From: Mucispirillum schaedleri
Lineage (GTDB): Bacteria > Chrysiogenota > Deferribacteres > Deferribacterales > Mucispirillaceae
NCBI GenBank assembly: GCA_949287985.1
Contig: CASEIN010000072.1
Coordinates: forward strand, 1-64,000
Length of the DNA: 64,000 nucleotides
Direction of reading: 5' to 3'
Shown here piece after piece: positions 41,480-59,985 of the stretch (positions within the stretch are counted from its first letter, which is position 1; each line of letters opens with the position of its first letter). Below the pieces are notes generated by a model. That model saw only the letters and a program-made list of their open reading frames with translations. It ran no database searches and was not told the origin of the DNA. The position numbers and the translations under genes were made by a program.

Positions 41480-41512
41480 TTGACAAATTAAATAAAAAGT
41501 ATTAATGATAAT
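41480..41512 (+). promoter_or_regulatory. Promoter of the TonB/M16/Yej locus
   Basis: A perfect TTGACA at 41480-41485 with a -10 candidate in TAATGATAAT (TAATGA at 41503-41508, 17-bp spacer). The -10 overlaps a Fur-like box. The ATG at 41548 has AGGAGTGA upstream. Confidence 0.6.
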
Positions 41513-41520
41513 TAATATCA
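41506..41520. promoter_or_regulatory. Fur-type operator
   Basis: TGATAATTAATATCA matches the 7-1-7 Fur box (TGATAAT-N-ATTATCA) at 13 of 14 defined positions and overlaps the promoter -10 region. Iron repression of the following locus is therefore likely; Zur or PerR boxes have similar halves and are the main alternatives. Confidence 0.7.
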
Positions 41521-41547
41521 ATAAATAAAAGATTTTAGGAGTGATTT

Positions 41548-44500
41548 ATGAAAAAAATTTCAGCAATGGTTATATTGCTTGCAGCTGTTGCTGCAGGTTG
41601 TAGTAGTGGCAGTAGTTCTGGGGGAAGTTCTGCTGTGCCTTTAATGACTATTACAGGAAAAGTTAGCGACCCTGCTGTAGAGGGTGCAAAAGTAGAGTTA
41701 ATTGATAGTAATAAAAATATATATGGTAAATGTGGGGTTAATGGTAATTCATTATGTAATGTATGGAGCAAAAGTGACGGCTCTTTTGTAATAACATTAC
41801 CATTAGGTTCAGATATTAGTAATTTCTCATTAAAATCAACAGGAGGGACTGATACAGCATATGGCACTGAAATAACTGTTTCTTATACTGCAGATATTAA
41901 TAATTATGCAGGAAATTACAGCAATATTATTCTTTCACCTATATCTTCGCTGTATACTAATCTTTTATTATCAAATACGCATGATAATGCAATAACCATA
42001 TTATCCAGCTATTTTGGTCTTGATAAAAATGTAGTACTTCTTGACCCAGAAAGTAATGGAGATTTACTAAAAATATCTTACATTATAAATCAAATCGCTT
42101 CAAATATTGGAAGTGATGATGCTTTTAGTAAAATAGCTGCTTTAATTAAATCAACAAGTCAGTTTACTACTGATATTGATAATATGCTTGCTTCTTTATT
42201 TACAAGTAATTCTCAACTACAGGTATCACTAAAAGAAATGTACCAAAATGTATCCAGTATACAAAGTCAAGATGTATATACAGTGCTTTCTTCTATTCAA
42301 AATCTTGAAAAAGTGCGTATGTTTAAAAATGCTTATGTAAATATTTTTGACGGCATAAGTGGGCAGGCATCAGCTGAAGCTTTAGCAAATATTGAGTTAT
42401 TATATAATCAGTTAAACAATAAAGTAGTAATACCTACAAGCCAGTTCCAAATAGAACAAATTGTTAGATTTGTTGCTTCTCAAACTGTTTTAACATCAAA
42501 AAAATTAAATGATTATGCAAATTTTAATGTAGATGCTGCTTCTTTTCAAAGTATCTTAACAGCTTTTATAAATGATGCTGCATTAATTGCAGATATTAAA
42601 ACCTTAGCTTCAGAAACAGTTTATGCTGTAACTGTGCCACTTGACAGCCCACTTGGTTTAAGTGATAACCAAAAAAGGGTAGATTATTACTTTAATTCCA
42701 CACAAGATGTAGGTTATCAGGCAAGGCTTATTACTAAAAGAGTAACAAGTGATACTATAATTGATGAAATATATAAAGATATAACATCAACTTATGCTAA
42801 GTATGGGCTGGCTGAAAAAGCAAAAAAATTAGCAGATGTAAATATTGCAGATAATATGGCAAGAATAAATGCTGTTATTTCTATTGCAAGATATGCATCA
42901 GGCTATAACTTAACTTTAGCAAAAACATATATTGCAGAAGCAAAACAGTTACTAGATACTTTAAAGGGAAGTGGCTGGTCTGATATTAGTAATGATGTGG
43001 TAGATACTTATGTAAGCCTTGTGAGAGCTTACAGATATGCTGGTATGGTAAGTGAAGCCAATACTTTAAAAGATGAAATAATAAATTTAATTAAAAATTC
43101 ATCTTCTTTAAATGATAGCCTCAAACAAACAAGGTATTTACGAATAGTATCTCACTTTGGTAATGCAGCAGATGATTCCATGATACCATCGTTAATATCA
43201 CAAGGTAATTTAGAATTAGCTTACAGCATGCTTCAAGAGTATAAATTACTAATAGATAATACTCCATGGAATACAGTCAATGATACATATAAAAATAATC
43301 AGGGAATGTATTATGTTTTTTATTTAAAATTTGCTTCAGATATTGTAGTAAAAGACAGCTCATATAAAACAAAACTACAGTCTGATTTTGCAACTGTTTA
43401 TAATACTGTAAAAAGTTTAATACAAGATAATGGTGGTATAGCATTTTTAAAAAGAACAGGTGTGGCAGGTGATGCAATAATTTCAGCTTATAAATTTAGT
43501 GGTGAAACTTTTGCCAATGAAATACTTGCTTTAATTACTGAAACAGATAAGGCTTATCCTTATACAATAGGTAGTTTAGTTTTAGAAAAAGCTAAAAGTA
43601 ATGGTTTTAATACTGCAAAAATATATTATGAAACAAAATACCCAATGGATAGCGAATATGCAAGATTAACAGAAACAAATGGATATGTGGATACTATAAA
43701 AAATATTGTAGAATATGCACAAGATAACAGTAATACTGTTCTTGCAAAAGAAGCTGTTGATTATTTAGCTAATCAAACAAATAAGGCAGTAGATTACCTT
43801 GTAGCAAATAAAAAAACTTTATCAAAATTAGTGCATTTTGCTGTTGCAAGCTCAAACCCTCAGGGTAAATTTGTAAGTTTTTATGGCTTTAATGCAGTTG
43901 CAGATATGTATATTGCTTTAGGTTATAACAGTGAAGCATTAAGCGTATTAGATAAAGCTAACACATATATTGGAAGCCTTAATCCTTCAATAGATAAATA
44001 TATTGGTTATATATTAATGTCTTATATGGCTCAAAGGGCAGGCAGTGCAGATAAAGCTATACAATACTATAATAATGCAGTTGCTGTAGAATTAACTTCT
44101 GGAACAGCTCAAAATATTAGTGATTTAAATATTCATAAAGCATCTGATACTTTATCGTTAAATATTGCAAATAAAGAAACATTATACCAAAATTACCTTA
44201 CAAAAGCTGAAGAACAAGTGCCTTTAATGGACAGCTCCAGTGATACAAATAAAAATAAGCAGGTTAGCCAGTATACATATATAGCAAATGTTTATTATGA
44301 TATTGCAAATATTACTGGTATGAAAAATATATTAGTAAAAGCAGAAAACCATGCAAAAACCATAGGTGCAGCTGCAACTAAATTAACGGCTATGAAAAAT
44401 ATTGCAAAAAAATATGCCAGCTATGAGATGATTGATGAAGGGTTTATTCTTGCAGAAAGAAACTACACATCATCTGCTGATATTTTTGCAATAGCACAGG

Positions 44501-44706
44501 AAATGGCAGCATCTGTTTTAGATTCAACAAGTATAGATTCAGATATTGCATTTGTTGATACAGACAGGGACGGCAAACCAGACTTCTTCCTGCCAAATGC
44601 AACACCTGAACAGATTACAGCGTCAGGGTTGACTCTTGATGATGATATAGATGGCGATGGTATCAAAGATGATACTGATTTGCTGCCTTATGTTGCAAAT
44701 AATTAA
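41548..44706 (+). CDS. Giant surface-type lipoprotein with helical repeats
   Basis: 1052 residues: lipobox AVAAGC (Cys18), a Ser/Gly linker, a carboxypeptidase-regulatory-like beta domain near 33-100 (TGKVSDPAVEGAKVELID), a long all-helical body with TPR-like units (ADMYIALGYNSEALSVLDKA, AGSADKAIQYYNNAV), and a calcium-type tail with DTDRDGKPD and DIDGDGIKDDTD (thrombospondin type 3-like). It is the first gene behind the Fur box, so it probably is an extracellular or outer-membrane partner of the TonB receptor. The ligand is unknown. Confidence 0.7.
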   Translation: MKKISAMVILLAAVAAGCSSGSSSGGSSAVPLMTITGKVSDPAVEGAKVELIDSNKNIYGKCGVNGNSLCNVWSKSDGSFVITLPLGSDISNFSLKSTGGTDTAYGTEITVSYTADINNYAGNYSNIILSPISSLYTNLLLSNTHDNAITILSSYFGLDKNVVLLDPESNGDLLKISYIINQIASNIGSDDAFSKIAALIKSTSQFTTDIDNMLASLFTSNSQLQVSLKEMYQNVSSIQSQDVYTVLSSIQNLEKVRMFKNAYVNIFDGISGQASAEALANIELLYNQLNNKVVIPTSQFQIEQIVRFVASQTVLTSKKLNDYANFNVDAASFQSILTAFINDAALIADIKTLASETVYAVTVPLDSPLGLSDNQKRVDYYFNSTQDVGYQARLITKRVTSDTIIDEIYKDITSTYAKYGLAEKAKKLADVNIADNMARINAVISIARYASGYNLTLAKTYIAEAKQLLDTLKGSGWSDISNDVVDTYVSLVRAYRYAGMVSEANTLKDEIINLIKNSSSLNDSLKQTRYLRIVSHFGNAADDSMIPSLISQGNLELAYSMLQEYKLLIDNTPWNTVNDTYKNNQGMYYVFYLKFASDIVVKDSSYKTKLQSDFATVYNTVKSLIQDNGGIAFLKRTGVAGDAIISAYKFSGETFANEILALITETDKAYPYTIGSLVLEKAKSNGFNTAKIYYETKYPMDSEYARLTETNGYVDTIKNIVEYAQDNSNTVLAKEAVDYLANQTNKAVDYLVANKKTLSKLVHFAVASSNPQGKFVSFYGFNAVADMYIALGYNSEALSVLDKANTYIGSLNPSIDKYIGYILMSYMAQRAGSADKAIQYYNNAVAVELTSGTAQNISDLNIHKASDTLSLNIANKETLYQNYLTKAEEQVPLMDSSSDTNKNKQVSQYTYIANVYYDIANITGMKNILVKAENHAKTIGAAATKLTAMKNIAKKYASYEMIDEGFILAERNYTSSADIFAIAQEMAASVLDSTSIDSDIAFVDTDRDGKPDFFLPNATPEQITASGLTLDDDIDGDGIKDDTDLLPYVANN

Positions 44707-44717
44707 TTTAAAATTTA

Positions 44718-44745
44718 ACCTGTGCCTTTTGGCACAGGTGTTTTT
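44718..44745 (+). terminator. Terminator between lipoprotein and receptor
   Basis: Nine-base stem (44718-44726 with 44731-44739) and TTTT loop with GTTTTT behind it, 12 bp before the receptor ATG. It would reduce read-through, so the receptor is made at a lower level than the lipoprotein, or has its own promoter. Confidence 0.82.
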
Positions 44746-44756
44746 AGGCTTCATTA

Positions 44757-47285
44757 ATGAATAATTCTAATAAACATATAAAGATTAAATTAATACTAAT
44801 ACTTATACCTTGTTTGCTATTTTTAACAGCTGCTATTGTATTAGCTGATGAAAATATGGAACATGATAATATAGATAATGAAACATATATAGAAGATACA
44901 TTTATTATGGAAGATATGGACGTAATTGAAACTATTGGCGAAGGAGCAGATTCTGGGGTAACAGAAATACCTAGAGATATGATAGAGCTTATTCCCAGTG
45001 GTAATCAAGGTGTTACAGATATTTTAAAAATTGCCCCGGGAGTTCAGTTTAGCGAAGAATACAGGGGAGCATCTTCTGCTGGTGAAATTTCACCGGGGCA
45101 AATATCCATATCAGGTGCAGCACCCTATGACAATTTATTTTTACTTGATGGAATGTCTAATTCAAGCTTATTAGACCCAGCATCTAATAACCCTAATTTA
45201 GCAAGCGATGTGGCAGGTGACCCACAAAAGTTTTTCATTAGCCAGTGGTTAATTGATGATGTTACATTATATGACAGCGATATTTCAGCTAAATATGATG
45301 GATTTCAAGGTGGCGTAGTTGATGTTAAAACAAGAAAACCCGGCACAAAGCTAGGTGGTAATATATCTTATAGAGGAACAAACAATTACTTAACTAATTT
45401 TTTTCTTAATGATGATGCTTATAATAATTTTCTAAATAGCGACCAGTCTAACCAGCTTTATTTTGAAAAACATTTTTTAAGTGCAGCAGTAGATATTCCA
45501 ATAAATAATAAAGGTGGAATATTATTAAGTTATAATAGAAACTGGTCTAAAATACCATTAATGAACTTTAAAAACTGGAAAAATCAAGAAAGAGTTTCAG
45601 AAAGTTATTATGCAAAAGGTTTGTATAATATTAATAGTGCAAGCTATATAGAATCATCTTTTTCTTATTCGCCACATAATAATAAGTATTTTATAAAAAA
45701 TACATTAAACAGCGATTTTAATATAAAAGGCGGTGGGTATTTTGGTGCTTTAAATTACGTTAATGAAACAGGCGGACACAAAATAAAACTTCATGCTGAT
45801 TATTCTTATTCAGAAAATAAGAAAATATCCCCAGATGATTATAAATCATGGGCTGCCACATCATTTAAACCATGGGGCTATGATTCATCTTCAACTTCTG
45901 AACAGCCTTTAAGTATGGAAGGTGGTTTTGGCAGTATTGATAAATATGAACACCAGGCAAAATTAAATTTTGACCACAATGTAAAACCATTAGATTTTTT
46001 TGGGGAACATAATATAAGCTATGGGGTAGCATATTCTTTTGGTTATGGCAGGTATTTAAGGAAAAATGATGCTCATGTATATAAAGATGCAATACTTAGC
46101 ACAGGTGTTATATGCGGCGGAGATTTTGGAACATGTGTTGATGGCGACCAATATTTTTCATCAAGATATACAACACCAGCAAGTGATGTAAGTGCCATAA
46201 TAAATGAAGTTAGTGGATATATAGAAGAAGATTATCAAATTGAAAGGGTAAATTTAAGAGCAGGGTTAAGAGTAAGTTATGATGATTATATGACTAATGT
46301 TAATTTTTCACCACGTATACGTTTATCTATTGATTTATTAAATAATAAAAACACGATTATAACAGGTGGATATGGTAGATATTATGCAGCATCTATGATG
46401 ACTTATAAACTTAGGGAAGGCAGAGCACCCAGTTTTTACGAAGAAAGATGGACTACAAAAAATGAACTTCAAAATTGGCAGTTAAGCAGTGATAATGTTC
46501 GTTCTGCTTATAAGTTTGATAATTTAAAAACACCTTATAATGATGAATATACTGCAAGTATTAACCAAAAAATATTTGATAGCTATATTAATTTGAAATA
46601 TGTAGAACGACATGGAAAAGATGGCATAGCCACTTCAAGAAGTGTAAGCAGCAGCGATGGTATATCTTATTATACATTTAATAATAATGGCACAAGTTTA
46701 TACAGGTCTGTTCAATTAAAATGGAGCAAATCATGGAAAAACCATAAATTACTTGCAAATTTAACATGGTCTATGTCTGAAACTTCAAATGATTCTTATG
46801 ATGATACTTTTGATATAGAAGAAATGGAAGATATTATATACTACAATGGTAAGCAAATACATCTTTATGAACTTCCAAAAAGCAACTATGCAAGGCCCGT
46901 TATTTTAAATGTGGCTTATGTGGGCAGGTATTTTGACCATTTAAAAATATCTGTAGCTCTAAATTATAAATCTCCGTATGTAGCAATAGAACAAGTGGAA
47001 GATAAAAGCTATGGTTATCAAGAAGTGGACCCTGTTACAGGTGGCTTAGTCTCTAAAACTACATCAGCTTATGAAGATGTGCAATATGGTCATAATTTTA
47101 CAGTAGATTTAGGGATTTACTGGGAACAGCCACTTTGGAAAAATCATAAATTAACTATATTTTGTGAAGTATATAATCTTTTTAATACTAAAAACATAAT
47201 AGGTAAAAGAGTTTATTCTTCCACATCTGCAAATGATTATGAATTAGGAACTCAGTTATGGTTGGGAGCAAATTATGAATTCTAA
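44757..47285 (+). CDS. TonB-dependent outer-membrane receptor
   Basis: 842 residues with a signal peptide (about 1-31), an acidic linker with MDVIETIGE (TonB-box-like), a plug domain (IPRDMIELIPSGNQGVTDIL, ISGAAPYDNLFLLDGM, YDGFQGGVVDVKTRKPG), and a long barrel ending in GTQLWLGANYEF with the terminal Phe. It imports a ligand using TonB-ExbBD, whose genes lie 3 kb downstream. The ligand is unknown; the Fur box and M16 protease suggest iron-bearing protein or peptide. Weak ribosome site. Confidence 0.88.
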   Translation: MNNSNKHIKIKLILILIPCLLFLTAAIVLADENMEHDNIDNETYIEDTFIMEDMDVIETIGEGADSGVTEIPRDMIELIPSGNQGVTDILKIAPGVQFSEEYRGASSAGEISPGQISISGAAPYDNLFLLDGMSNSSLLDPASNNPNLASDVAGDPQKFFISQWLIDDVTLYDSDISAKYDGFQGGVVDVKTRKPGTKLGGNISYRGTNNYLTNFFLNDDAYNNFLNSDQSNQLYFEKHFLSAAVDIPINNKGGILLSYNRNWSKIPLMNFKNWKNQERVSESYYAKGLYNINSASYIESSFSYSPHNNKYFIKNTLNSDFNIKGGGYFGALNYVNETGGHKIKLHADYSYSENKKISPDDYKSWAATSFKPWGYDSSSTSEQPLSMEGGFGSIDKYEHQAKLNFDHNVKPLDFFGEHNISYGVAYSFGYGRYLRKNDAHVYKDAILSTGVICGGDFGTCVDGDQYFSSRYTTPASDVSAIINEVSGYIEEDYQIERVNLRAGLRVSYDDYMTNVNFSPRIRLSIDLLNNKNTIITGGYGRYYAASMMTYKLREGRAPSFYEERWTTKNELQNWQLSSDNVRSAYKFDNLKTPYNDEYTASINQKIFDSYINLKYVERHGKDGIATSRSVSSSDGISYYTFNNNGTSLYRSVQLKWSKSWKNHKLLANLTWSMSETSNDSYDDTFDIEEMEDIIYYNGKQIHLYELPKSNYARPVILNVAYVGRYFDHLKISVALNYKSPYVAIEQVEDKSYGYQEVDPVTGGLVSKTTSAYEDVQYGHNFTVDLGIYWEQPLWKNHKLTIFCEVYNLFNTKNIIGKRVYSSTSANDYELGTQLWLGANYEF

Positions 47286-48168
47286 TAATGTTGTTATTTC
47301 AGTTGCAAATTTAGAGCATAGTTATGGTTCTACAAAAGTATTAAATGGGCTAAATTTCACCATAGAAAAAGGAAAAATATTCGGGCTTTTTGGCAAAAAT
47401 GGAGCAGGTAAAACTACCACTATAAATATTTTAATGGGTTTTTTAACTCCAGAAAAAGGAGAATGTATTATATATGGTGAAAAAGCAGCCAGTTTAAGTA
47501 ATGAAAATAAAAGACGCATAGGACTTTTACATGAAGGCCATATTAGCTATGATTTTATGACATTAGAGCAGACAGAAAAATTTTATAAAGGTTATTTTCC
47601 ACAGTGGGAAAGCAAAACATTTGCATATTTTATGGAAAAATTAAATCTTCCAAAAAATAGAAAAATTAAACATATGTCTTGTGGGCAGCGTTCTCAAGTG
47701 GCATTGGCTGTTTTAATGGCTCAAGGAGCAGAAACCTTAATTTTAGATGATTTTTCTATGGGGCTTGATGCAGGGTATAGAAGGTTATTTCTAGACCATC
47801 TAAATGAGTTTGTAAAAGATAATAATAAAACCATATTAATTACATCACACATTGTGCAGGATTTAGAAAGGTTTGTTGATGAAGCAGTAATTATTAATAA
47901 AGGACAGGTTTTACTTTCTGCACCTCTTTCTAGTATAAAAGATGGAATTAATGGTTACAGGCTTCCATTAAACATAGATATAGAAAGATATAGAAATCAT
48001 AAAGATATATTAGATATATCCATAACAAAAGAACATTATGAGTTTATTTCAAAGCTTACATTAGAGGAAAGTTATAATTTATTTAAAGATACTGTTAAAA
48101 AGGAACAGATTATTCCTTATACTGTATCTTTTGAAGATGCTTTTATTGCCTTAACAGGCAAATATTAA
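47275..48168 (+). CDS. ABC-2 type transporter ATPase with non-standard motifs
   Basis: 297 residues, overlapping the receptor by 11 bp. Walker A GKNGAGKTTT (40-49) is standard. The signature is MSCGQ (134-138) in place of LSGGQ and the Walker B ends LILDD, with Asp in place of the catalytic Glu. A C-terminal 80-residue domain follows. It pairs with the next permease gene and a DUF4857-like protein, which is a non-importer arrangement; energising an envelope process or export is possible. Confidence 0.85.
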   Translation: MNSNNVVISVANLEHSYGSTKVLNGLNFTIEKGKIFGLFGKNGAGKTTTINILMGFLTPEKGECIIYGEKAASLSNENKRRIGLLHEGHISYDFMTLEQTEKFYKGYFPQWESKTFAYFMEKLNLPKNRKIKHMSCGQRSQVALAVLMAQGAETLILDDFSMGLDAGYRRLFLDHLNEFVKDNNKTILITSHIVQDLERFVDEAVIINKGQVLLSAPLSSIKDGINGYRLPLNIDIERYRNHKDILDISITKEHYEFISKLTLEESYNLFKDTVKKEQIIPYTVSFEDAFIALTGKY

Positions 48169-48180
48169 ATGGGGTAATCA

Positions 48181-48840
48181 ATGAAAAATATATTTTATAA
48201 AGAATTTATTAAATTAAACCGTATTTTACTTGCTGTATTTATTATTCATCTAGCAGTTCTTGTATATACTTTTTTTAGAGTGCGAGTGGGCATTATTATG
48301 AATGAGCCTAGTGCTATATGGCTTGATATAATTCTAAAAAATGGTATTTTTTACAGTAAAGTAGAAGTTGCTTTTTATATATCGGCCTTATTGCTTGGTG
48401 TAATGCAGTTTTATCCAGAATTTGAGAGAAAAAGATTTCGTCTTGCCTGTCACCTGCCAATAAATGAATATAAAATGATATTTTATACATCATTTTTTGG
48501 TTTTTGCATACTTACTTGCATTTGGATTTTTAATACACTAGGTGTTGTGTTAATAACAGCTCAATTTTTCCCAGTAGACTTATATAAAGAAATCCCTCTT
48601 ATAATTTTTTACTGGTTTATAAATTCATTAATTATTTATTCATTTGCTTCCTCTATAACACTTGAAGCATCGTGGAATGTAAAATTACGCCTTGCATTAA
48701 TGATGGCAGGCTCTATTGGTGCTTTTAAAATGGCAGTATATAACAGTAATCCACTATACGCATTTACGGCATTTGTTTTTGCTGTAATTTACTTTTTTGC
48801 CATATATTTTCCAGCATTAAGGTTTAGGAAGGGGTTGTAA
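48181..48840 (+). CDS. ABC-2 type permease-like membrane protein
   Basis: 219 residues with six hydrophobic segments (about 12-32, 58-78, 98-122, 133-155, 168-185, 190-210) and YPEFERKRFRLACHLPI in a cytosolic loop, where ABC-2 permeases contact the ATPase. It is the partner of the preceding ATPase by position. The substrate is unknown. The TGGGGTAA stretch before the ATG gives a weak ribosome site. Confidence 0.75.
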   Translation: MKNIFYKEFIKLNRILLAVFIIHLAVLVYTFFRVRVGIIMNEPSAIWLDIILKNGIFYSKVEVAFYISALLLGVMQFYPEFERKRFRLACHLPINEYKMIFYTSFFGFCILTCIWIFNTLGVVLITAQFFPVDLYKEIPLIIFYWFINSLIIYSFASSITLEASWNVKLRLALMMAGSIGAFKMAVYNSNPLYAFTAFVFAVIYFFAIYFPALRFRKGL

Positions 48841-48841
48841 T

Positions 48842-50098
48842 ATGAAGCTTTATTCAAAATATCTTATTGTATGTATTGCTGTTTTTTCTTTTAGTATATT
48901 GATGCCTTATTTTTATGCCTTAATTTTTGTAAAAAATACAGATAAAGATTTTATTTATTACAGCGAAATAATAGATGATTTTGCCATAAGAACATATACT
49001 GCAGATAGAAATAATATATATAAAGATAAAGCAGGTAATATATACACAGAACAAGAGTTTAAACAGTTATTGCCACAAATATTTGCACGAGATTTATCAT
49101 TAAACAATAAATATACTGAAATTATTAACAATAAAATAGTAAGTGCAGAAGATATGATAAAATATAATTTTTATTTATCAACTGAACCAGATAAAATTAA
49201 TGAAGAAAATATTAGAATAAAATTAACTCCAGTATTTGAATCTCAAAGTGGCTCTGCAAGCCTTAGTATGCCTGTGGATTTAGCACGTATTGGTAAAGAT
49301 ATTACTTTTATTAATGCAAGAACTAATAAAGTTGATACTGAAAAATCAAAGCTGTTTACCAGTGAACTTTTAAATAATGGTTTTGTATTTCCTGTAAAAA
49401 TATATGGCTCTAATCCTGATGTTAGAAAATCTTTTGATGCAGGGGTATTTTTACTTGACAGTAACAACCAGTTATTCAACCTTAAAATGGTGGAAAATAA
49501 ACCTGTTGTTGAAAAATATAAAGCTGATTTTAATAATGAAGAAATCGCTTTAATATCCGTAAAAGAAAACCAATATGCCACTTTTTATGGTTTTATTGTA
49601 TCAAAATCAGGCATTATTTATTTAATAAATACAAACAATACTGTCAGCAGGTATGCTATTAAAGATTACAACCCTTATAAAGACAGCTTAAGAATCAATA
49701 TAAATCCACTACACACCTTAGTAAATATTACAAAAGAAACAGAACAAACTAGTTATCTTTTTTATAATAACCAGTTAATAAAAAGCTATACTTTAGAAAT
49801 AATACCAACATTAAGCGGTGCAAGGTTATATTTTTATAATGTATTATTTCCATTTAGCATATATGGAAATATTTATACAGCTGCAGAATATTTAAAAGTA
49901 GAAATAAGCTCAAATATACCTGCTTCAATAATTTTTATTATAATTTTAATGATTATATACTTTATAATATGCAGATATTTTAAAAGCATATCAAAAACAA
50001 CAATTATAGATATGGCAGTAATTGCTTTAAGTGGGATATATGGTTTTACTGCATTATTACTACTACAAAATTATAAGAAGGATACGTTATGGGAATGA
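48842..50098 (+). CDS. DUF4857-like membrane protein
   Basis: 418 residues: an N-terminal helix (8-30), a long periplasmic region, and two helices near the C-terminus (355-380, 388-410). The domain layout and the IYKDKAGNIYTEQEFKQLLP block fit the DUF4857 family, which accompanies ABC-2 transporters in Bacteroidetes. It starts one base after the permease stop and overlaps exbB by ten bases. Function unknown; it may be a third subunit of the ABC complex. Confidence 0.65.
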   Translation: MKLYSKYLIVCIAVFSFSILMPYFYALIFVKNTDKDFIYYSEIIDDFAIRTYTADRNNIYKDKAGNIYTEQEFKQLLPQIFARDLSLNNKYTEIINNKIVSAEDMIKYNFYLSTEPDKINEENIRIKLTPVFESQSGSASLSMPVDLARIGKDITFINARTNKVDTEKSKLFTSELLNNGFVFPVKIYGSNPDVRKSFDAGVFLLDSNNQLFNLKMVENKPVVEKYKADFNNEEIALISVKENQYATFYGFIVSKSGIIYLINTNNTVSRYAIKDYNPYKDSLRININPLHTLVNITKETEQTSYLFYNNQLIKSYTLEIIPTLSGARLYFYNVLFPFSIYGNIYTAAEYLKVEISSNIPASIIFIIILMIIYFIICRYFKSISKTTIIDMAVIALSGIYGFTALLLLQNYKKDTLWE

Positions 50099-50520
50099 AA
50101 CATTTAGTTGATTATGGCGTTATAGCAATACTTGCAATTATGAGTGTAATTGCAGTAGCTGTGGCTATTGAACGGTTTAAGTTTTTTAAGAAAGTAAATA
50201 TTGATAATTACAAAACACTGGAACTTTTGGAATTAGAACTTACAAAACACATGCATATTATTGCCACTATAGGTTCAAACGCACCTTATGTAGGATTACT
50301 TGGCACAGTTCTTGGCATTATGTTTACGTTTTCTGTTATGGGAACAGGAGCAGGTGCTAATGTTAATGATATTATGACAGGGTTAGCTCTTGCACTAAAA
50401 GCTACAGCAGCTGGGCTTTTAACAGCCATTCCTGCTATTATACTATATAACATACTTCATAGAAAAGCTAATGAATTACTGCTTTTAAAGGAGGACAGCC
50501 TTGAGAGAGAAAAGCTTTGA
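50089..50520 (+). CDS. exbB: ExbB/TolQ-type proton channel subunit
   Basis: 143 residues, a short form with three helices. The family block GSNAPYVGLLGTVLGIMFTF and the ALKATAAGLLTAIPAIILYNI helix with its Thr/Ala pattern are clear. It drives TonB by proton flow with the next gene. It overlaps the DUF4857-like gene by ten bases and exbD by 20 bases, so the operon is translationally coupled. Confidence 0.92.
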   Translation: MGMKHLVDYGVIAILAIMSVIAVAVAIERFKFFKKVNIDNYKTLELLELELTKHMHIIATIGSNAPYVGLLGTVLGIMFTFSVMGTGAGANVNDIMTGLALALKATAAGLLTAIPAIILYNILHRKANELLLLKEDSLEREKL

Positions 50521-50884
50521 TTCAATTAATGTAGTCCCTTTTATTGATATAATGCTTGTACTTTTAACAATTGTGCTTGCAACAGCTACATTTATACAAA
50601 CTGGTGCAATACCTGTTAAGTTGCCTGAAACATCATCATCAACATCTCAACAGGTAGAAGGTGTGGTGGTTACTATTTCAAAAGATAGTAAAATATATGT
50701 TAATAATAAGCAGGTAAACATAAATGAGATAGCAGCTATCCTTAAAGAGCATGACCCTAAAAATACTTTTATAACCATATGGGCAGATAAACAGGCAGCC
50801 ATACAGCCACTGGCTGAATTAATGGGTTATTTAAAAGAACATAAGTTTGAAAAAGTAAACTTACAAATAGAGGTAAAAAAATAA
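50501..50884 (+). CDS. exbD: ExbD/TolR-type protein
   Basis: 127 residues starting with TTG seven bases after AAAGGAGG, overlapping exbB. It has one helix with the conserved Asp in FIDIMLVLLTIVLATATF (proton path), then a periplasmic domain ending in LAELMGYLKEHKFEKVNLQIE. Partner of ExbB and TonB. Confidence 0.92.
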   Translation: MREKSFDSINVVPFIDIMLVLLTIVLATATFIQTGAIPVKLPETSSSTSQQVEGVVVTISKDSKIYVNNKQVNINEIAAILKEHDPKNTFITIWADKQAAIQPLAELMGYLKEHKFEKVNLQIEVKK

Positions 50885-50885
50885 T

Positions 50886-51632
50886 ATGAAGCAGGCATTT
50901 ACATATTCATTTATTATACATTTTTCGTTTGCTGTATTAATAATATTTTTATCATCAATTTCATTTCAAGTGGAAAAACCACAGCATATACAGCTTTCTA
51001 TGGAAATATTTAATAATAACGAAGGAAGTGGGGCAGTGGCAAAAGGTATAGAAACATCTACTTCAAATGTAAATGTAAAAAGCAATGCAAATGCAGTTAA
51101 AAATGCTCAAAATAATATGGTAGAGCAAAAAGAAATTAAAAAGATAGAAGATACTGCCTTAAAAACTGCAGCTGTTAAAAAAGAAGAAATTATTAAAGAA
51201 AAACAAAAAAAACAGGTTAATAAACAGGCATCTAAAGGTGCAGTTATGGCAGCAAAAGGTAAGGCAGCAGGAACTGGTGCAGGAAAGAAAAGCATATCAG
51301 ATGGTGCTCCTAAATCTGTAGGTGGAGCAGATGGAGTATATTCACTAAAAGAAGTGGATAATGTGCCAAAATCATTAAAAAGTGTACGCCCTGTATATCC
51401 AGAATATGCTAGAAATATGAGAATAGAAGGATTTGTACAGGTTAGATTTATTTTAGATGATAAAGGAAAAATTGTTAACCCTAAAGTTGTTAAAGCAGAA
51501 CCTGTTGATGTATTTGAAAATGCAGCATTAAACGCTGTTAATCAGTGGAAATTTCAACCAGCTAAAAAAGATGGTAAAAATGTTAATGTGGCTATGGTTG
51601 TAAAATTAAATTTTAAATTGGATGAACAATAA
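50886..51632 (+). CDS. tonB: TonB energy-transducing protein
   Basis: 248 residues with one N-terminal helix (about 8-27), a Lys/Ala-rich periplasmic spacer instead of the usual proline-rich one, and the C-terminal domain PVYPEYARNMRIEGFVQVRFILDDKG...AALNAVNQWKFQPAKKDGK. It connects ExbBD to the receptor. The presence of a private TonB set within the locus means this system does not rely on a housekeeping TonB. Confidence 0.92.
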   Translation: MKQAFTYSFIIHFSFAVLIIFLSSISFQVEKPQHIQLSMEIFNNNEGSGAVAKGIETSTSNVNVKSNANAVKNAQNNMVEQKEIKKIEDTALKTAAVKKEEIIKEKQKKQVNKQASKGAVMAAKGKAAGTGAGKKSISDGAPKSVGGADGVYSLKEVDNVPKSLKSVRPVYPEYARNMRIEGFVQVRFILDDKGKIVNPKVVKAEPVDVFENAALNAVNQWKFQPAKKDGKNVNVAMVVKLNFKLDEQ

Positions 51633-51648
51633 TTTTGGAGAAATATAT

Positions 51649-54471
51649 ATGAAGTTGATATTAAAAAAATCATTTTTCTTAATTTTAATACTACAATTAC
51701 TTTTTATTACAGGCTGTAAGAAAAATAACGAACAAAATATAAAGGAGGAGCTGCTTCCATTTAGTGATAAAGTGGTAACAGGCGTGTTAGATAATGGCTT
51801 AAAGTTTTATATTAAACAAAACGATTTTCCTTCTGATAAAATAGAGTTAAGGCTAAATGTTAGAAGCGGCTCTTTAAATGAAACAGATGAAGAAAGAGGG
51901 CTTGCTCATTTTGTAGAACATATGGCATTTAATGGCACAAAAAACTTTAAAGGTAATGATGTTATAAAATTTATGGAAGAAGCGGGGCTTGTTTTTGGTA
52001 AAGATACAAACGCATCAACTTCTACAGATTATACAAATTATCAACTTACAGTGCCTTATGATAATGACAGGCTTATAAATACAGCTTTTTTAATACTAAA
52101 AGACTGGGCAGTAAACATTACATTTGATAAGGAAGAAATAGAAAAAGAAAAAGGTGTTATAATAGAAGAGTGGAGAGCAAGAAACGATGTTAGATACAGG
52201 CTTGGTGTAGAAAGTAGAAAACATACACTTGCAGGTTCATTATATCCAGAACGCGACCCTATTGGTGTAATGGATATTGTTAAAGGTGCTAATAAAGAAT
52301 TATTAGAAGGATACTATAAAAAATGGTATCGTCCTGATAATATGGCAGTAATCGTTGTTGGTAATATAGATATAGAAAGAGCTAAAAAATTAATTATGGA
52401 TAATTTTGCAGATATTCCTGTATCACAGGTTTATGAGCCGGCTAGTAAAAATATTAATTATCCTAAAGGTATTCGAACAGCTGTAGTTAAGGATAAGGAA
52501 GCAAAAGGCATTTTTGCTACTCTTTACATATACCATAAAGGTAAAGAAACAACTACATACAGTGAATTTAAAGAAGATGTGCTTGAAATGGGTGCAATGA
52601 ATATGTTTGCAAGAAGAATGATGCTTGATATTCAAGAAAAAAAATTAAACCTGCTTGCGTTAAGGGGAAATGTTAATATTTCAGGTGATAATACAAAAAT
52701 TGTAACAATTTCTGGCTCTTTTTTGCCTAATACTTTCAATGCTTCCCTTAAAAGTATGCTTCAAGAAATAGAAAGGGTAAAACGTTATGGGTTTACTAAA
52801 GATGAATTAAATTACTTCAAAACTACACAAATGGCATTTTTAGATAAAGCATCTAAAGAAGATTATAATTTTCCATCAAGCAAATACGCTGATCAATTAA
52901 GTGATTTTGATACAAGTGGTGGTTATTTTACAGAGTTTCATCAGGATAAAATATTATTTGAAAGGGTTTTTAATGAAACAAATATTACTAGTTTCAATAG
53001 AGCATTTCAAAATATGGTTTCATCAAATGATATGCTTTTATTAGTATCAGCACCTGAAAACCAATTATCAGATATAAATATATCAAGTGATATATTTAAT
53101 AAAATGAATGCTGAAATCGAGAAAAGCTCTATAAGCCCTGTAGAAGAAACAGCATATACCACAAAATTAATCGATGAAAATATTAGGGAAGGAAAAATAA
53201 TATCAAGAAAAGATAATACAATATTAGGCATTACAGAAGTAGTGTATGAAAACGGTGTTAAGTTATATATAAAACAAAATAAGGAAGAGCATAATAAATT
53301 TGAATTATCTGGTAAAAAACTAGGTGGATTATCTATTTTACCAGATGATGAATATATATATGCAGATACCATGACAAAAGTAATATCAAAAAGTGGCTTT
53401 GAAAATATATCCAAAAGAAATCTTGATGAGTTACTGGCTTCAAAAAATGTAACTATTGCACCTGCTGTATCAGAATATACTTTTGATTTTACAGGTGGTG
53501 GATTTAGCGATGATATAGAAAGTGGATTCCAACTTTTATATAAATATTTTACAGCACCAGTTATAGATAAAAACTTTTTAAGTGCTTATATTAATTCTAT
53601 GATTACAAAAATTGAACTTGATAAAAATGATGCTAAAATCCAGTTTGGTAGAAAAGCAACAGAAAAAATGTATAATAAAAATTATAGAAGAAATTATTTA
53701 ATAGAAGATGATTTAAAAGAAATAAATGCAGATAAATTGCTTAGTATATATAAAAATAATTATTTAGATATTAATAACTATATTTTTGCCATATCAGGTG
53801 ATGTAGATGTAGAACAGGTTATAAAATTGGGCGCAAAATATCTTGGTTCTTTGAAAAAAATAGATAAAAAATCATATTTTAAAGATAGAAATGTATATTT
53901 AGAAAGCACTTATGCTGAATATGAAGCAAATGGAGATAGTGAACCAAGAACTACTTTAAATATAATCAAAATGGCTAAGCCAAAGGCAAATGTGCAGGGC
54001 AGATTTATAGCAGGGCTTACAAGAAACATTTTAAGCATTAGAATGAGAGAAGCAATTAGAGAACAAGAAAGCGGTGCTTATTCTGTCTCTACCTTTATCA
54101 GATATATAGAAGCCCCAAAAACAGAAGTTTTTACTAAAATTGCTTTCCCATGTGAACCATCAAGAAAAGATGAAGTTAGAGCAAAAACATTAAATGTATA
54201 TGATAATTTTATAACAAAAGGTATTACAAATGAAGAATTACAGGCTTCAAAATTAGTGCTAAAAAATAATTACAGCACTGCCTTTAAAGAAAATAAATAC
54301 TGGATAAATACATTAACATATAATAATTTAATGGGATTAAAAGTTTATTCACTGGAAGAAATAAATAATATATATGACAAGCTGACAGTGGAAGAAGTCA
54401 ATAAGTTTATCCATGATAATCTGCTTGGAGCAGATACTTTTATAAGTATTTTTAATCCGGAGCAGAAATAA
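51649..54471 (+). CDS. M16-family zinc protease lipoprotein
   Basis: Start set at 51649 after GGAG, giving a lipobox (LLFITGC, Cys23). The 940-residue protein has the inverted zinc motif HFVEH (87-91) in ERGLAHFVEHMAFNGTKNF and a downstream Glu in IIEEWRARNDVR, so the first M16 unit is active. A second M16-like half from about residue 530 lacks HxxEH, as is usual for the partner half. PqqL and FusC are similar. Lipid-anchored in the periplasm, it could cut imported peptide or protein. It overlaps YejA by one base. Confidence 0.9.
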   Translation: MKLILKKSFFLILILQLLFITGCKKNNEQNIKEELLPFSDKVVTGVLDNGLKFYIKQNDFPSDKIELRLNVRSGSLNETDEERGLAHFVEHMAFNGTKNFKGNDVIKFMEEAGLVFGKDTNASTSTDYTNYQLTVPYDNDRLINTAFLILKDWAVNITFDKEEIEKEKGVIIEEWRARNDVRYRLGVESRKHTLAGSLYPERDPIGVMDIVKGANKELLEGYYKKWYRPDNMAVIVVGNIDIERAKKLIMDNFADIPVSQVYEPASKNINYPKGIRTAVVKDKEAKGIFATLYIYHKGKETTTYSEFKEDVLEMGAMNMFARRMMLDIQEKKLNLLALRGNVNISGDNTKIVTISGSFLPNTFNASLKSMLQEIERVKRYGFTKDELNYFKTTQMAFLDKASKEDYNFPSSKYADQLSDFDTSGGYFTEFHQDKILFERVFNETNITSFNRAFQNMVSSNDMLLLVSAPENQLSDINISSDIFNKMNAEIEKSSISPVEETAYTTKLIDENIREGKIISRKDNTILGITEVVYENGVKLYIKQNKEEHNKFELSGKKLGGLSILPDDEYIYADTMTKVISKSGFENISKRNLDELLASKNVTIAPAVSEYTFDFTGGGFSDDIESGFQLLYKYFTAPVIDKNFLSAYINSMITKIELDKNDAKIQFGRKATEKMYNKNYRRNYLIEDDLKEINADKLLSIYKNNYLDINNYIFAISGDVDVEQVIKLGAKYLGSLKKIDKKSYFKDRNVYLESTYAEYEANGDSEPRTTLNIIKMAKPKANVQGRFIAGLTRNILSIRMREAIREQESGAYSVSTFIRYIEAPKTEVFTKIAFPCEPSRKDEVRAKTLNVYDNFITKGITNEELQASKLVLKNNYSTAFKENKYWINTLTYNNLMGLKVYSLEEINNIYDKLTVEEVNKFIHDNLLGADTFISIFNPEQK

Positions 54472-56285
54472 TGGTAAAGTTTTTAAGTTTATTTCTTATA
54501 TTAATAACATTTAATGCAGCTTATTGCCAAAATATTATTAAAACTCATGCAATATCTTTAACGGATACTATAAAATATAGTGCAGATTTTAAACATTATG
54601 ATTATGTTAATCCAAATGCACCTAAAGGTGGAACATTTCGAAGAGCTTTATATGGAACGTATGACAGCTTTAATATGTTTGCATTAAAAGGTGTATCTAT
54701 GAGTGGTTTAAGTTATATATATGATACTCTTTTAGTAAGTTCATCAGATGAGGCAGGAACGTATTATGGGCTTTTAGCTGAAAGTATAGAATACCCTGAA
54801 GATTATTCGTGGGTTATATTTAATATTAGAAAAAATGCATACTGGCATGACGGCAAACCTATTACCAGTGAAGATGTTGTATTTAGCTTTAATGAAATTA
54901 CAAAAGTAAGTCCTTATTACAGAAATTATTATGCTTTAATAGAAAAAGCTGAAGCAGTTAATAAATATAGAGTAAAATTTATATTTAAAAAAGGTGAAAA
55001 AAGCAGGGAACTGCCTCTTATTGCAGGGCAGCTTACAATTATCCCAAAACACTACTGGCAGACAAGAGATTTATCAAAAGCGACACTTGAAATTCCTTTA
55101 GGCAGCGGAGCATATAAAATATCAAATTATACAGCAGGTAAATCTGTAACTTTAAAAAGAGTTCCAAATTATTGGGGAAAAGATATACCTGTTAATAAAG
55201 GTATGGATAATTTTGATACTATAATCTTTGAATATTTTAGAGACCAGACAGTTGCTTTTGAAGCCTTTAAAGCTGGACAGTTTGATTTAATATCAGAAGG
55301 TTCTGGTAAAAGATGGTATAGAGGATATACTGGTAAATATTTTGATTTAGGATATATTAAAAAAGAAGAAATACCATTTCGTAATGGGCAGGGCATGCGT
55401 GGTATTTTTATGAATACTGCTAAATATCCATTAAATAATATAAATGTAAGAAAAGCACTAAATTATGCTTATGATTATGAATGGATAAATAAAAACTTAT
55501 ATTTTGGTAATTATAAAAGATGTGACAGCTTTTTTTCAAACTCACCTTTATCAAGTGGTGTTGTTCCCTCTAGTGAAGTGCAGCAGATAATAAAACAAGT
55601 AAAACCAAATGCAGATAAAGAACTACTATCATCACCTTTTTATTTTCCTAAAAATCAGGGCGATGCCACAAACAGAGCAAATTTAATCGAAGCAGTTAAA
55701 TTATTACAGCAGGCAGGATATAAAAATATCAATGGAAAAATGGTTGATAAAAATGGAAAGCCTCTTGTTTTAGAAATTGGTCTTACATCAAAAGCATTAG
55801 AAAATGAACTTGTTATTTTTCAAAAAGCATTGGAACGAATTGGTGTAGAGTTAAAAATTTTATTTTTAGATAACAGCCAGTATGCACAAAAAGTAAGAAA
55901 TAAAGACTTTATGCTAATATATGCTGGTATGAAACAATCTGAATCACCAGGCAATGAACAGCGTTCCATGTGGGGAAGTTATGCAGCACTTGAAAATGGC
56001 ACTAGAAACTATGCTTCAGTTAGAGATGAATCTGTTGATAAACTTATAGATATGATAATACAAGCACCAAACCGTAAAGATTTGGTGTTATATACACAAG
56101 CACTAGATAGGATACTGCTTTTTGGTTGGTATGTAATTCCTTCTGGTTTTTCTGATAAATACAGGCTTGCTTACTGGGATAAATTTGAAAAACCAGACAT
56201 TACACCATACTATAGTTTAAGTATTTCAAGCTGGTGGATAAATACTGAAAAAGAAGAAAAAATTAATAAAATGGTTATAAAATAA
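54471..56285 (+). CDS. yejA: YejA-like peptide-binding protein
   Basis: 604 residues with a signal peptide (to about residue 19) and a family 5 binding fold: [27 protein letters not shown] at the front, which is specific to the YejA branch, and [19 protein letters not shown]. It captures peptides in the periplasm for the permeases that follow. The ATG overlaps the protease stop codon (TAATG), so its synthesis is coupled to the M16 protease. Confidence 0.9.
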
Positions 56286-56286
56286 T

Positions 56287-57387
56287 ATGAATGCATATAT
56301 ATTAAAAAGATTATTTTTAATAATTCCTACACTGCTTGGTATATTTACCATAAACTTTTTTCTAATACAGGCAGCTCCCGGTGGCCCTGTAGATACTATG
56401 ATTGCAAAAATTACAGGACAATCAGTAAGTATAGAAGATAGAGCACTAGGGAATGATTCATCAAATGAAAGGCTGGAATTATCAGAAGAAACAAATGACC
56501 TAGCATCTAAATATGCTGGAGGGCAGTATCTTACACCAGAATTAATAAAAGAAATAGAAAAATTATATGGCTTTGATAAGCCAATTGTAGAACGTTTTTT
56601 CTTAACTTTAAAAAATTATTTATTGTTTGATTTTGGTGATAGTTTTTTTACAGATAAAAGTGTATTGCAAATGATAAAAGAACGGCTGCCAGTATCTATT
56701 TCTCTTGGTGTATGGAGCACAGTGTTAATTTATTTAATCAGCATACCACTTGGTATTAAAAAGGCAGTAAAACATGGCTCAAAGTTTGATGTTTGGAGCT
56801 CATTTTTTATAATATTAGGCTCTGCCATTCCTGTATTTTTATTTGCAGTGATTTTAATTATATTTTTTGCAGGTGGTAATTATTTTGCATGGTTTCCTCT
56901 TCGTGGGCTTACATCAGAAGATTTTGAAAATATGTCGTTAATAGGTAAAGTAATGGATTATTTATGGCATATATTTCTACCAATATTTAGCATGGTTATA
57001 GGTGGTTTTGCAGGTCTTACTATGCTTACTAAAAATTCATTTCTTGATGAACTTCATAAGCAGTATGTTATTACAGCAAGAGCAAAAGGAATATCAGAAA
57101 AAAGAGTGCTTTATGGTCATATTTTTAGAAATGCTATGCTTATTGTTATATCTGGGCTTCCTGCAACTTTTATTTCCATGTTTTTTTCAGGTTCATTACT
57201 TATTGAAGTAATTTTTTCATTAAATGGTATGGGGCTTATGGGTTTTGAAGCTGCTATTAACAGGGATTATCCTGTAATGTTTAGCACTTTATATATTTTT
57301 ACCTTAATTGGACTTTTGCTTAATCTAATAAGCGATATTACATATACACTTGTTGACCCTAGAATATCTTTTAAAGCCGTAAAGTGA
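56287..57387 (+). CDS. yejB: YejB-like peptide ABC permease
   Basis: 366 residues with about six helices. It has the long periplasmic loop of YejB after helix 1, and the [26 protein letters not shown] loop. It forms the peptide channel with YejE. One base after yejA stop. Confidence 0.92.
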
Positions 57388-57394
57388 GAGAAAT

Positions 57395-58408
57395 ATGAGC
57401 CCAATACTAAAAAGAAGATTAAAAAGATTTAAAAATAATAAAAGAGCATTTATTTCACTTATAATATTTATGTGTTTATTTATTACAAGTCTTTTTGCAG
57501 AATTTATTGCTAATGATAAACCAATCATTATGAAATATAAAGGTGAATTTTATTTTCCTGTTTTTTTTACATACAGCGATAAAGAATTTAATGGTTTTTT
57601 TGATACAGAAGCTAACTATAAAGATGAATTTACCCTAAATGAAATAACTAATAACGGTTGGATTATATGGCCTATTATTAAATACAGCTATGACACAATA
57701 GAATACAACATGTCATCACCACCACCACTGCCACCAACTTTAAATAACCCATTAGGTATAGATGCACAGGGCAGAGATGTTTTTGCAAGATTAATATACG
57801 GCTTTAGGTTTTCTGTTATTTTTGGTATATTACTTACTATTACAACATCAATTATAGGCATTATTACAGGAGCATTACAGGGGTATTATGGTGGTAAGGT
57901 TGATATTGCAGGGCAAAGATTTATGGAAATATGGGCAGGTATACCAATGCTTTATTTACTTATTATGATAAATAGTATCCTGCGGCCTGGTTTTTGGTGG
58001 CTGTTATTTTTAATGACGTTATTTGGCTGGATGAAACTTGTTGGTGTTGTCCGTGCCGAATTTTTAAAGGCTAGAAGTTTAGAATACATTCAAGCAGCAA
58101 AAGCTATGGGAGTAAAAGACAGCGTAATAATTTTTAGGCATATTCTACCTAATGCACTTGTAGCAACTATCACATTTCTACCATTTATTTTAAGTGGTTC
58201 AATTACATCTCTTACTTCCCTTGATTTTTTGGGGTTTGGTATGCCTGCAGGTTCACCATCTTTGGGCGAATTGCTATCATCTGGTAAAGCTAATATTCAT
58301 GCCCCATGGCTTGGTATTTCTGCTTTTGTATTACTTTCATTGCTTTTAAGCCTGCTTGTTTTCATTGGAGAAGGGCTGCGAGATGCTTTTGATCCTAATA
58401 AAATATAG
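57395..58408 (+). CDS. yejE: YejE-like peptide ABC permease
   Basis: 337 residues with about six helices, the YejE-type extended periplasmic loop (about 50-115, with YSYDTIEYNMSSPPPLPPTL) and the EAA block EYIQAAKAMGVKDSVIIFRHILPN. Pairs with YejB. Confidence 0.92.
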   Translation: MSPILKRRLKRFKNNKRAFISLIIFMCLFITSLFAEFIANDKPIIMKYKGEFYFPVFFTYSDKEFNGFFDTEANYKDEFTLNEITNNGWIIWPIIKYSYDTIEYNMSSPPPLPPTLNNPLGIDAQGRDVFARLIYGFRFSVIFGILLTITTSIIGIITGALQGYYGGKVDIAGQRFMEIWAGIPMLYLLIMINSILRPGFWWLLFLMTLFGWMKLVGVVRAEFLKARSLEYIQAAKAMGVKDSVIIFRHILPNALVATITFLPFILSGSITSLTSLDFLGFGMPAGSPSLGELLSSGKANIHAPWLGISAFVLLSLLLSLLVFIGEGLRDAFDPNKI

Positions 58409-58416
58409 GTGTATAT

Positions 58417-59985
58417 ATGTTAAAAGTTGAAAATATAGAAATTATATTTAATACAGAATTAGGACAAACAGTCGCTGTTAAAGATTTCTCTTTTCATGTG
58501 AAAAAAGGGGAAATTATGGCTGTTGTTGGAGAAAGTGGTTCTGGTAAATCAGTTTGTGCATTGTCTATTACAGCATTGTTAAAAGAACAAGGTGCAGTTC
58601 TAACGAAGGGAAAAATTATTTTTAATAATCAAATAATAGATTATAACGATGAAAAAAAACTACGGGAAATTCGTGGTGGTGAAATAGCTTATATATTTCA
58701 AGAACCTATGGTTTCATTAAATCCACTTCATACAATTGGCAGGCAAATTACAGAAAGGCTTATTTATGTTGAGGGTGTTTCAAAAACAGAAGCTATGGAA
58801 AAAGCTGTGGAGCTTTTATCTTTATGTGGCATTAAAAATTCAAAATCAAGACTTAAGGATTATCCACATAATTTTTCTGGTGGTGAAAGGCAAAGGATTA
58901 TGATTGCTACTGCTCTTGCATGCAACCCAAAACTACTAATAGCAGATGAACCAACCACAGCATTAGATGTAACCGTTCAAAAACAAATTTTAGATTTATT
59001 AAAGGATTTAAAAGAAAAGTTTAATATGTCTGTTTTATTAATTACTCATGATTTAAGAATAGTAAAAAAATATGCAGATAATATTGTGGTTGTGAGAAAT
59101 GGAAATGTAATAGAGAAAGGAAGCTGTAAAGAGATTTTCTCTAATCCTTTTCATGAATACACAAAATTATTAATTAATACAGAGTATGGCAAGCCTGTAA
59201 AAGCATGCAGTAATAAAGAAATGTTTAAAGCAGAAAATATTAATGCTTACTATAAATTACCTAAAAAAGTATTTAAAAAACAGCAGTATTTTTATGCAGC
59301 TAAAAATATTAATTTATCTATATTAGAGGGAGATAGTTTAGGCATTGTTGGAGAAAGTGGTTCAGGTAAATCAAGCCTTGTTAAAGCATTTCTTCATTTA
59401 ATTGATTTTACTGGAAATGTATATTTTGATAATATATGTTTTAGTCAGCTTAAAAAAGAGCATCTAAGAAAGCAGCGCAGGAATATTCAAATTGTTTTTC
59501 AAGATCCATTTGGTAGCCTAAACCCACGAATGACAGCTGAAATGATTATTAGCGAAGGTATAAAATCATGTGGTTACAGTAAAGATGAAATAAAAAAACA
59601 AGTGGAAGAAATATTAATAAAAATAGGACTTCCAGAAAACAGTAAAAATAAGTATCCACATGAATTTTCTGGAGGACAAAGACAGCGTATTGCTATTGCT
59701 AGAGCAGTAATTATGAAGCCCAAAATTATTATTTTTGATGAACCAACATCATCACTTGATAAAAATGTGCAAATGCAGATACTAGATATGCTAAGAGATT
59801 TGCAGCAGGAATATAAAATTACATATATTTTTATAAGCCATGACCTTCACGTAGTTCAATCTATATGCAACAATATGGCAGTAATGAAAGATGGCGAGAT
59901 AATAGAATATGGTAAGAGCAATGAGATTATCAATAATCCAAAACATGAATATACAAGACAGCTAATAGAAGCAGCTTGGATTTAA
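58417..59985 (+). CDS. yejF: YejF-like double ATPase of the peptide importer
   Basis: 522 residues with two complete ABC domains: Walker A GESGSGKS at residues 38-45 and again near 316, signatures FSGGERQRI and FSGGQRQRI, and Walker B LLIADEPTTALD and [12 protein letters not shown]. It powers YejB/YejE. In E. coli YejABEF takes up microcin C-type peptides. Confidence 0.94.
   Translation: MLKVENIEIIFNTELGQTVAVKDFSFHVKKGEIMAVVGESGSGKSVCALSITALLKEQGAVLTKGKIIFNNQIIDYNDEKKLREIRGGEIAYIFQEPMVSLNPLHTIGRQITERLIYVEGVSKTEAMEKAVELLSLCGIKNSKSRLKDYPHNFSGGERQRIMIATALACNPKLLIADEPTTALDVTVQKQILDLLKDLKEKFNMSVLLITHDLRIVKKYADNIVVVRNGNVIEKGSCKEIFSNPFHEYTKLLINTEYGKPVKACSNKEMFKAENINAYYKLPKKVFKKQQYFYAAKNINLSILEGDSLGIVGESGSGKSSLVKAFLHLIDFTGNVYFDNICFSQLKKEHLRKQRRNIQIVFQDPFGSLNPRMTAEMIISEGIKSCGYSKDEIKKQVEEILIKIGLPENSKNKYPHEFSGGQRQRIAIARAVIMKPKIIIFDEPTSSLDKNVQMQILDMLRDLQQEYKITYIFISHDLHVVQSICNNMAVMKDGEIIEYGKSNEIINNPKHEYTRQLIEAAWI

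Follow-up and report, generated by a model that had tools for sequence, protein, structure and literature searches.

A predicted Fur operator before a 14-gene Fus-like import operon in Mucispirillum schaedleri

The box before the operon

We asked what controls a 14-gene import operon of Mucispirillum schaedleri and to which nutrient its control points. The operon lies in a 64-kb stretch of DNA that was analysed as a whole and is called the window here (Table 1). The initial annotation had described a near-perfect 7-1-7 Fur box over the -10 region of a promoter with a perfect TTGACA, had considered it the one clear operator of the whole locus and had named iron as the regulated nutrient. The box is where it was said to be: TGATAATTAATATCA (reverse complement TGATATTAATTATCA) lies exactly at 41506-41520 and has a single mismatch to the 7-1-7 Fur consensus TGATAATNATTATCA, i.e. 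13 of the 14 defined positions agree. Its overlap with the promoter was also borne out. TTGACA (41480-41485) and AATGAT (41504-41509) together give 10 of 12 matches, with AATGAT as the best -10 in the scan, and the box overlaps both this -10, which is itself a weak prediction, and the expected start site. Promoter-like matches as such were not above chance between 41250 and 61200 (125 found, compared to 131.9 in shuffles). The ATG at 41548 begins 27 bp after the end of the box. From its sequence and the comparisons described below, this site is very probably a Fur operator through which the operon is repressed by iron.

Table 1. Features of the promoter region and of the operon in the window
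Feature	Position	Strand	Remark
Predicted Fur box, 19 bp	41504..41522	.	7-1-7 core 41506-41520
-35 hexamer TTGACA	41480..41485	+	Sequence; identical in two same-genus orthologous promoters
Best-matching -10 hexamer AATGAT	41504..41509	+	18-bp spacer; weak match (4/6), putative
Ribosome binding site AGGAG	41537..41541	+	Sequence; conserved in same-genus alignment
1052-aa predicted lipoprotein, first gene	41548..44706	+	No Pfam/NCBIfam match; homologues beside TBDT in relatives
Terminator-like hairpin, 9-bp stem, T-rich tail	44718..44739	+	Between genes 1 and 2; identical in both same-genus orthologues
FusA-like TonB-dependent receptor (TBDT)	44757..47285	+	Profile search
ABC transporter ATPase	47275..48168	+	
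219-aa protein	48181..48840	+	No family match; probable membrane partner
DUF4857 protein	48842..50098	+	
ExbB	50089..50520	+	
ExbD	50501..50884	+	
TonB	50886..51632	+	
M16 protease, PqqL/FusC-like	51622..54471	+	HFVEH zinc motif at residue 96
Peptide-type solute-binding protein (SBP_bac_5)	54471..56285	+	
OppB-type permease	56287..57387	+	
OppC-type permease	57395..58408	+	
YejF-like double ATPase	58417..59985	+	606 bits, model cut-off 834
359-aa protein, no family match	59996..61075	+	10 bp downstream; likely last operon gene

No other match in the 64-kb window has fewer than two mismatches. The single promoter may drive the genes unequally: the hairpin at 44718-44739 may lower transcription after the lipoprotein gene, which suggests that more lipoprotein than receptor is made. 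Strong but different hairpins are present in the gap between the lipoprotein and receptor genes of two relatives (G011 and G012). In another relative (G007) the operon's solute-binding protein gene is split into two adjacent open frames (L037:14490-16304).

Could the palindrome be a product of chance in AT-rich intergenic DNA that binds nothing? As a loose motif it does occur at background frequency. When up to three mismatches were allowed, the window contained 25 matches compared to 22.3 expected, and 29 of 100 shuffles reached 25. We also scanned the own genome (2.44 Mb, 79 contigs) with the reversed pattern as a control. The loose motif was not enriched there with up to two mismatches (113 sites versus 130 in the control); with up to one mismatch there were 11 sites versus 6. 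TGATA-N5-TATCA occurred nine times in this genome and nine times in the control, and three of the nine sites were iron loci. The genome-wide count of the loose motif was therefore rejected as proof of the box, and the warning about AT-rich DNA that accompanied the initial annotation was a fair one for loose matches; the high genome-wide frequency that it named does not extend to the exact variant in promoter position. What sets the window site apart is where it lies, which genes share the box and that it is conserved, rather than any rarity of the loose motif.

The same box at iron and heme genes

The exact variant TGATATTNATTATCA, counted on either strand, is present at only three sites in the own genome, all of them intergenic, and its reversed control at none. 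The three sites precede a gene with a FeoA domain (PF04023 match), an anaerobic heme operon with hutW and a TBDT gene, and the Fus-like operon of the window. Such a small number of loci, two of them iron or heme genes, argues against a palindrome that arose by chance. HutW degrades heme anaerobically and was assigned by TIGR04107 (498 bits, cut-off 400); its gene is the first in a row that also encodes a TBDT, an ECF-like transporter and ExbB-ExbD-TonB-like proteins (the names were given by eye, the TBDT by its plug match). Three genes of the own genome encode a TBDT plug, namely the heme receptor beside hutW, a BtuB-like receptor, whose best NCBIfam score is below the cut-off, and the window receptor; the box is found at two of these three loci. 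At feoA, hutW and the Fus-like operon, the box and the start codon are separated by a similar distance (26-27 bp). This was not used as evidence because at hutW it holds only if an upstream ATG is taken as the start, and relatives share a start codon 48 bp further into the gene.

The annotation had suggested looking for the same box at known iron genes. The FeoA-domain gene and hutW carry it, but feoB of the own genome does not (the best sites within 1500 bp upstream have three mismatches). A feoAB reading was thus rejected for this genome: in the genus the gene after the boxed feoA is RseC-like and not feoB, and feoB lies in another contig. There it is directly preceded by a gene (L165:1320-2072, contig C59) in which DtxR-type iron-dependent repressor domains are fused to a FeoA domain. 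As feoB has no box and stands behind this gene, some iron genes of this bacterium would lie outside the control of Fur. The DtxR-type gene may encode a second iron sensor, and iron regulation may be divided between Fur and this repressor.

Next, we surveyed 45 genomes of the order for the exact form and found 33 sites, compared to nine for the reversed control. More than half of them (19 of 33) precede feoA (13 sites), hutW (4) or the Fus-like operon (2, in the own genome and in G040), and none of the nine control sites precedes a gene that was recognisable by eye as iron-related. Together with the boxes at the FeoA-domain gene and hutW, these 19 sites support the initial proposal that the window site is a Fur operator and that the nutrient under control is iron. 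Nine of the 13 feoA sites belong to the genus and four to family f6. Pfam identified FeoA in all eight of the boxed feoA genes that were tested, and the other five were identified by their near-identical sequence; in family f6 the next gene is FeoB by Pfam at one of the four loci and shows the same N-terminal motif by eye at the other three. The remaining exact sites comprise two before DUF2325-type genes and 12 that are inside open frames or before genes without an evident iron role. A 17-mer search across the genus gave 40 sites versus 14 in the control, and 16 of the 40 were identified (8 feoA, 5 hutW and 3 Fus-like operon sites).

The survey also led to several observations beside the main question. 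At the two DUF2325-type genes the exact variant is found 10-31 bp before the gene (L077 in G040, assigned by likeness, and L078 in G039, assigned by Pfam), and this uncharacterised family may be iron-regulated here. The 17-mer of the window site recurs unchanged in G007 (L161:4979-4993), 42 bp before a gene of 166 aa that had no match in Pfam or NCBIfam and may be a further member of the iron regulon. Another recurring site, TTGATAATGCTTATCA in G000 (the own genome), G005 and G007, was set aside as an operator since the conserved stretch looks like RNA stems. A conserved intergenic stretch with hairpins is present in three genomes (L006, ~1250-1760, in contig C47 of the own genome, and L162 and L163), and one of its hairpins carries a paired change (CAGCAGG/CCTGCTG versus CAGTAGG/CCTACTG). 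A search of Rfam with this stretch gave no family at gathering level and weak hits below it; the stretch is possibly an undescribed structured RNA.

Orthologous promoters and candidate regulators

The feoA sites had been found with the window site's own pattern, and a matrix of all 19 sites is therefore partly circular. For this reason we built a matrix from hutW sites only. The hutW genes were collected by protein family, independently of the box pattern, and were present in 15 of the 45 genomes. TGATA-N5-TATCA is found upstream of hutW in all five same-genus genomes that have the gene and in G011, i.e. in 6 of 15 genomes of the order. In the other nine hutW has no such box, and several of these genes seem, by eye, to lie inside a longer operon. 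Scored with this matrix, which was made from five distinct hutW sites, the window site reached 20.4 bits, the highest value in the 64 kb (the next was 12.0).

We then compared the promoters of orthologous operons. A match to the TBDT was found in 14 genomes, and 11 promoters were compared; G010, G024 and G035 were left out, as their contigs do not contain the start of gene 1. The box is present in five of the 11 promoters (G000, G005, G007, G011 and G040). Each 300-bp upstream region was put through 1000 dinucleotide shuffles, which never reached the best score for G000, G011 or G040 and reached it once for G005 and four times for G007. The partly circular 19-site matrix also gives the window site the top rank in the window and identifies the same five promoters. 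The G005 and G007 sites have three mismatches to the 7-1-7 consensus, and the G040 box lies 225 bp before the gene. With the hutW matrix, no box was found in the upstream regions of G012, G013, G014, G038 and G048, and G032 gave a weak match only (reached in 12 of 1000 shuffles). On this prediction, some relatives that carry the operon would lack Fur control. Three genomes (G038, G032 and G040; loci L043, L047 and L048) share a leader motif, GAGGATCTCCGAATCCC, upstream of the lipoprotein gene, which could serve as another kind of regulatory element in promoters whose Fur box is absent or far away. At distant Fus-like loci, sites with two mismatches precede those of Yersinia and Vibrio and no convincing box was seen upstream of the Pectobacterium locus, in a scan that was run without a shuffle control and provides a lead only.

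Within the genus the TBDT of the operon has a patchy distribution (3 of 10 genomes, with 3 of the 10 being <90% complete). We aligned the window promoter with its two same-genus orthologues, whose TBDTs are 97-98% identical. TTGACA, the arms TGATA and TATCAAT, and AGGAG are unchanged, and the centre of the palindrome varies. The conserved arms provide modest support because the aligned stretch as a whole is 86% identical in the three promoters. The top score with an independently collected matrix, the absence of an equal score in 1000 shuffles and the arms conserved in the genus all speak against a chance palindrome, and we regard that explanation as very unlikely.

Which protein would then bind the site? 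Two FUR-family genes were found in the genome, which is 97% complete. The product of the first (C17) matches PF01475 with 118 bits, its best PDB matches are Fur proteins, and it aligns along most of its length with the Campylobacter Fur-type protein 4ets (E 2.6e-31) and with other Fur proteins. The second (C63) scores best as PerR and is located directly before rubrerythrin. Both proteins are below the NCBIfam equivalog cut-offs, so that the names Fur and PerR-like rest on relative scores and neighbours. In the own genome there is no box within 200 bp before fur.

Alternatively, the site could be the operator of another metalloregulator. Candidates are two FUR-family proteins, the peroxide regulator PerR and the zinc regulator Zur, and the DtxR-type repressor beside feoB. 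FUR-family boxes resemble one another, a PerR-like gene is present, and the DtxR-type repressor fused to FeoA means that Fur is not the sole iron regulator of this bacterium. Several observations speak against these regulators. No third FUR-family gene, and hence no separate Zur, was found in the 97% complete genome; the promoter of PerR-like and rubrerythrin genes has no such box (the best upstream site has four mismatches), and neither does the neighbourhood of the DtxR-type gene. DtxR and PerR boxes have other sequences, and the genes that share the box are feoA and heme genes rather than peroxide or zinc genes. We thus consider control by another metalloregulator highly improbable, and retain Fur as the predicted regulator. 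The promoter region of the PerR-like gene (C63, L017) contains a different imperfect palindrome, TAGTAAT-N7-ATTACTA, noticed by eye, which is a possible PerR operator.

Proposed function and relation to known systems

We asked what the operon could import when it is expressed. An alignment profile of the TBDT matched the ferredoxin receptor 4zgv (E 1.8e-152) and 6ofr, which we take to be YddB (E 2.5e-87). The protease matched the M16 peptidase 9ldy (E 6.4e-98), PqqL (E 5.2e-90) and 6b03, presumably FusC (E 1.6e-41). Two elements of a Fus or protease-associated import system are present, namely a FusA-like receptor and an associated M16 protease with HxxEH, and judged by these homologies the operon is a Fus/YddB-PqqL-like protein-import system. 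Among the distant relatives, the Pectobacterium locus has the order TonB-TBDT-M16-ABC, i.e. Fus (we take its ABC part to be FusD), and rhizobial loci combine a TBDT with an M16 protease, with peptide-transporter genes also present in L138, L140 and L141. The 4zgv structure is named as FusA, a ferredoxin receptor, in PMC6793856.

We propose the following mechanism. When iron is sufficient, iron-loaded Fur (C17) would bind the palindrome at 41504-41522, cover the -10 and the start of the best promoter-like match, and block transcription. When iron is scarce, Fur would leave and the 14-gene operon would be made, probably as a single transcript. The surface lipoprotein and the FusA-like receptor could then capture a protein or large peptide that carries iron and import it, with the dedicated ExbB-ExbD-TonB motor powering the uptake. 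The M16 protease would cut the imported protein in the periplasm, and the Yej-like importer would take up the pieces.

It is also conceivable that Fur binds the site with iron acting just as a cue, and that the operon serves another nutrient (e.g. peptides, nickel or a metallophore). Of the models matched by the solute-binding protein, those of the NikA type score highest, although far below their cut-offs (105 versus 393 bits), and E. coli yddB and pqqL mutants are described as growing normally under iron limitation (PMC6793856). On the other hand, the window receptor is closest to FusA, whose system takes iron from ferredoxin according to the same source (PMC6793856). On balance we find another nutrient rather unlikely and favour iron itself as the nutrient. 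A Fur box that probably switches on protein-scavenging uptake at low iron is a sensible but fairly ordinary result. The wider proposal is that Mucispirillum-like bacteria, which stand outside the Proteobacteria in which such systems have been described, possess a complete, Fur-controlled operon for eating a protein to obtain its iron. One transcription unit would combine outer-membrane protein import and periplasmic digestion with a peptide importer of its own, and the hairpin after gene 1 would cause the surface lipoprotein to be made in excess; here we see the chances as evenly balanced.

The prediction would tie a 14-gene import operon that otherwise has no assignment to iron starvation, and this iron link names the growth conditions in which to look for the operon's substrate. 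It also outlines a predicted Fur regulon for Deferribacterales, consisting of feoA, the heme operon and the Fus-like operon. Among open-licence PMC papers we found no published regulon of this kind and no publication on Fur in Mucispirillum, Deferribacteres or the phylum.

The 7-1-7 form of the Fur box is reportedly that of Baichoo and Helmann. The window site is likewise a 15-bp inverted repeat over a promoter (13/14 positions) and the same box precedes feoA and heme genes in these bacteria; most of the Deferribacterales sites in this analysis have an A/T exchange next to the centre (TGATATTNATTATCA). The 7-1-7 view appears as well in PMC11353095, which describes a feoAB1 operator bound by Magnetospirillum Fur.

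With Fus of Pectobacterium and ydd/pqqL of E. coli, the window operon has in common a FusA/YddB-type receptor, an M16 protease with the zinc motif, and TonB. The E. coli ydd/pqqL operon is described as Fur-regulated (PMC6793856), which resembles the window operon with its predicted Fur box. Fus-type clusters are reported across Proteobacteria in that paper, whose main text contains no words beginning with 'Deferri' or 'Mucispirillum' (PMC6793856), whereas the window operon belongs to Deferribacterales. Compared to both known systems, the window operon adds its own ExbB-ExbD, the 1052-aa lipoprotein, an ABC/DUF4857 module and a Yej-like peptide importer.
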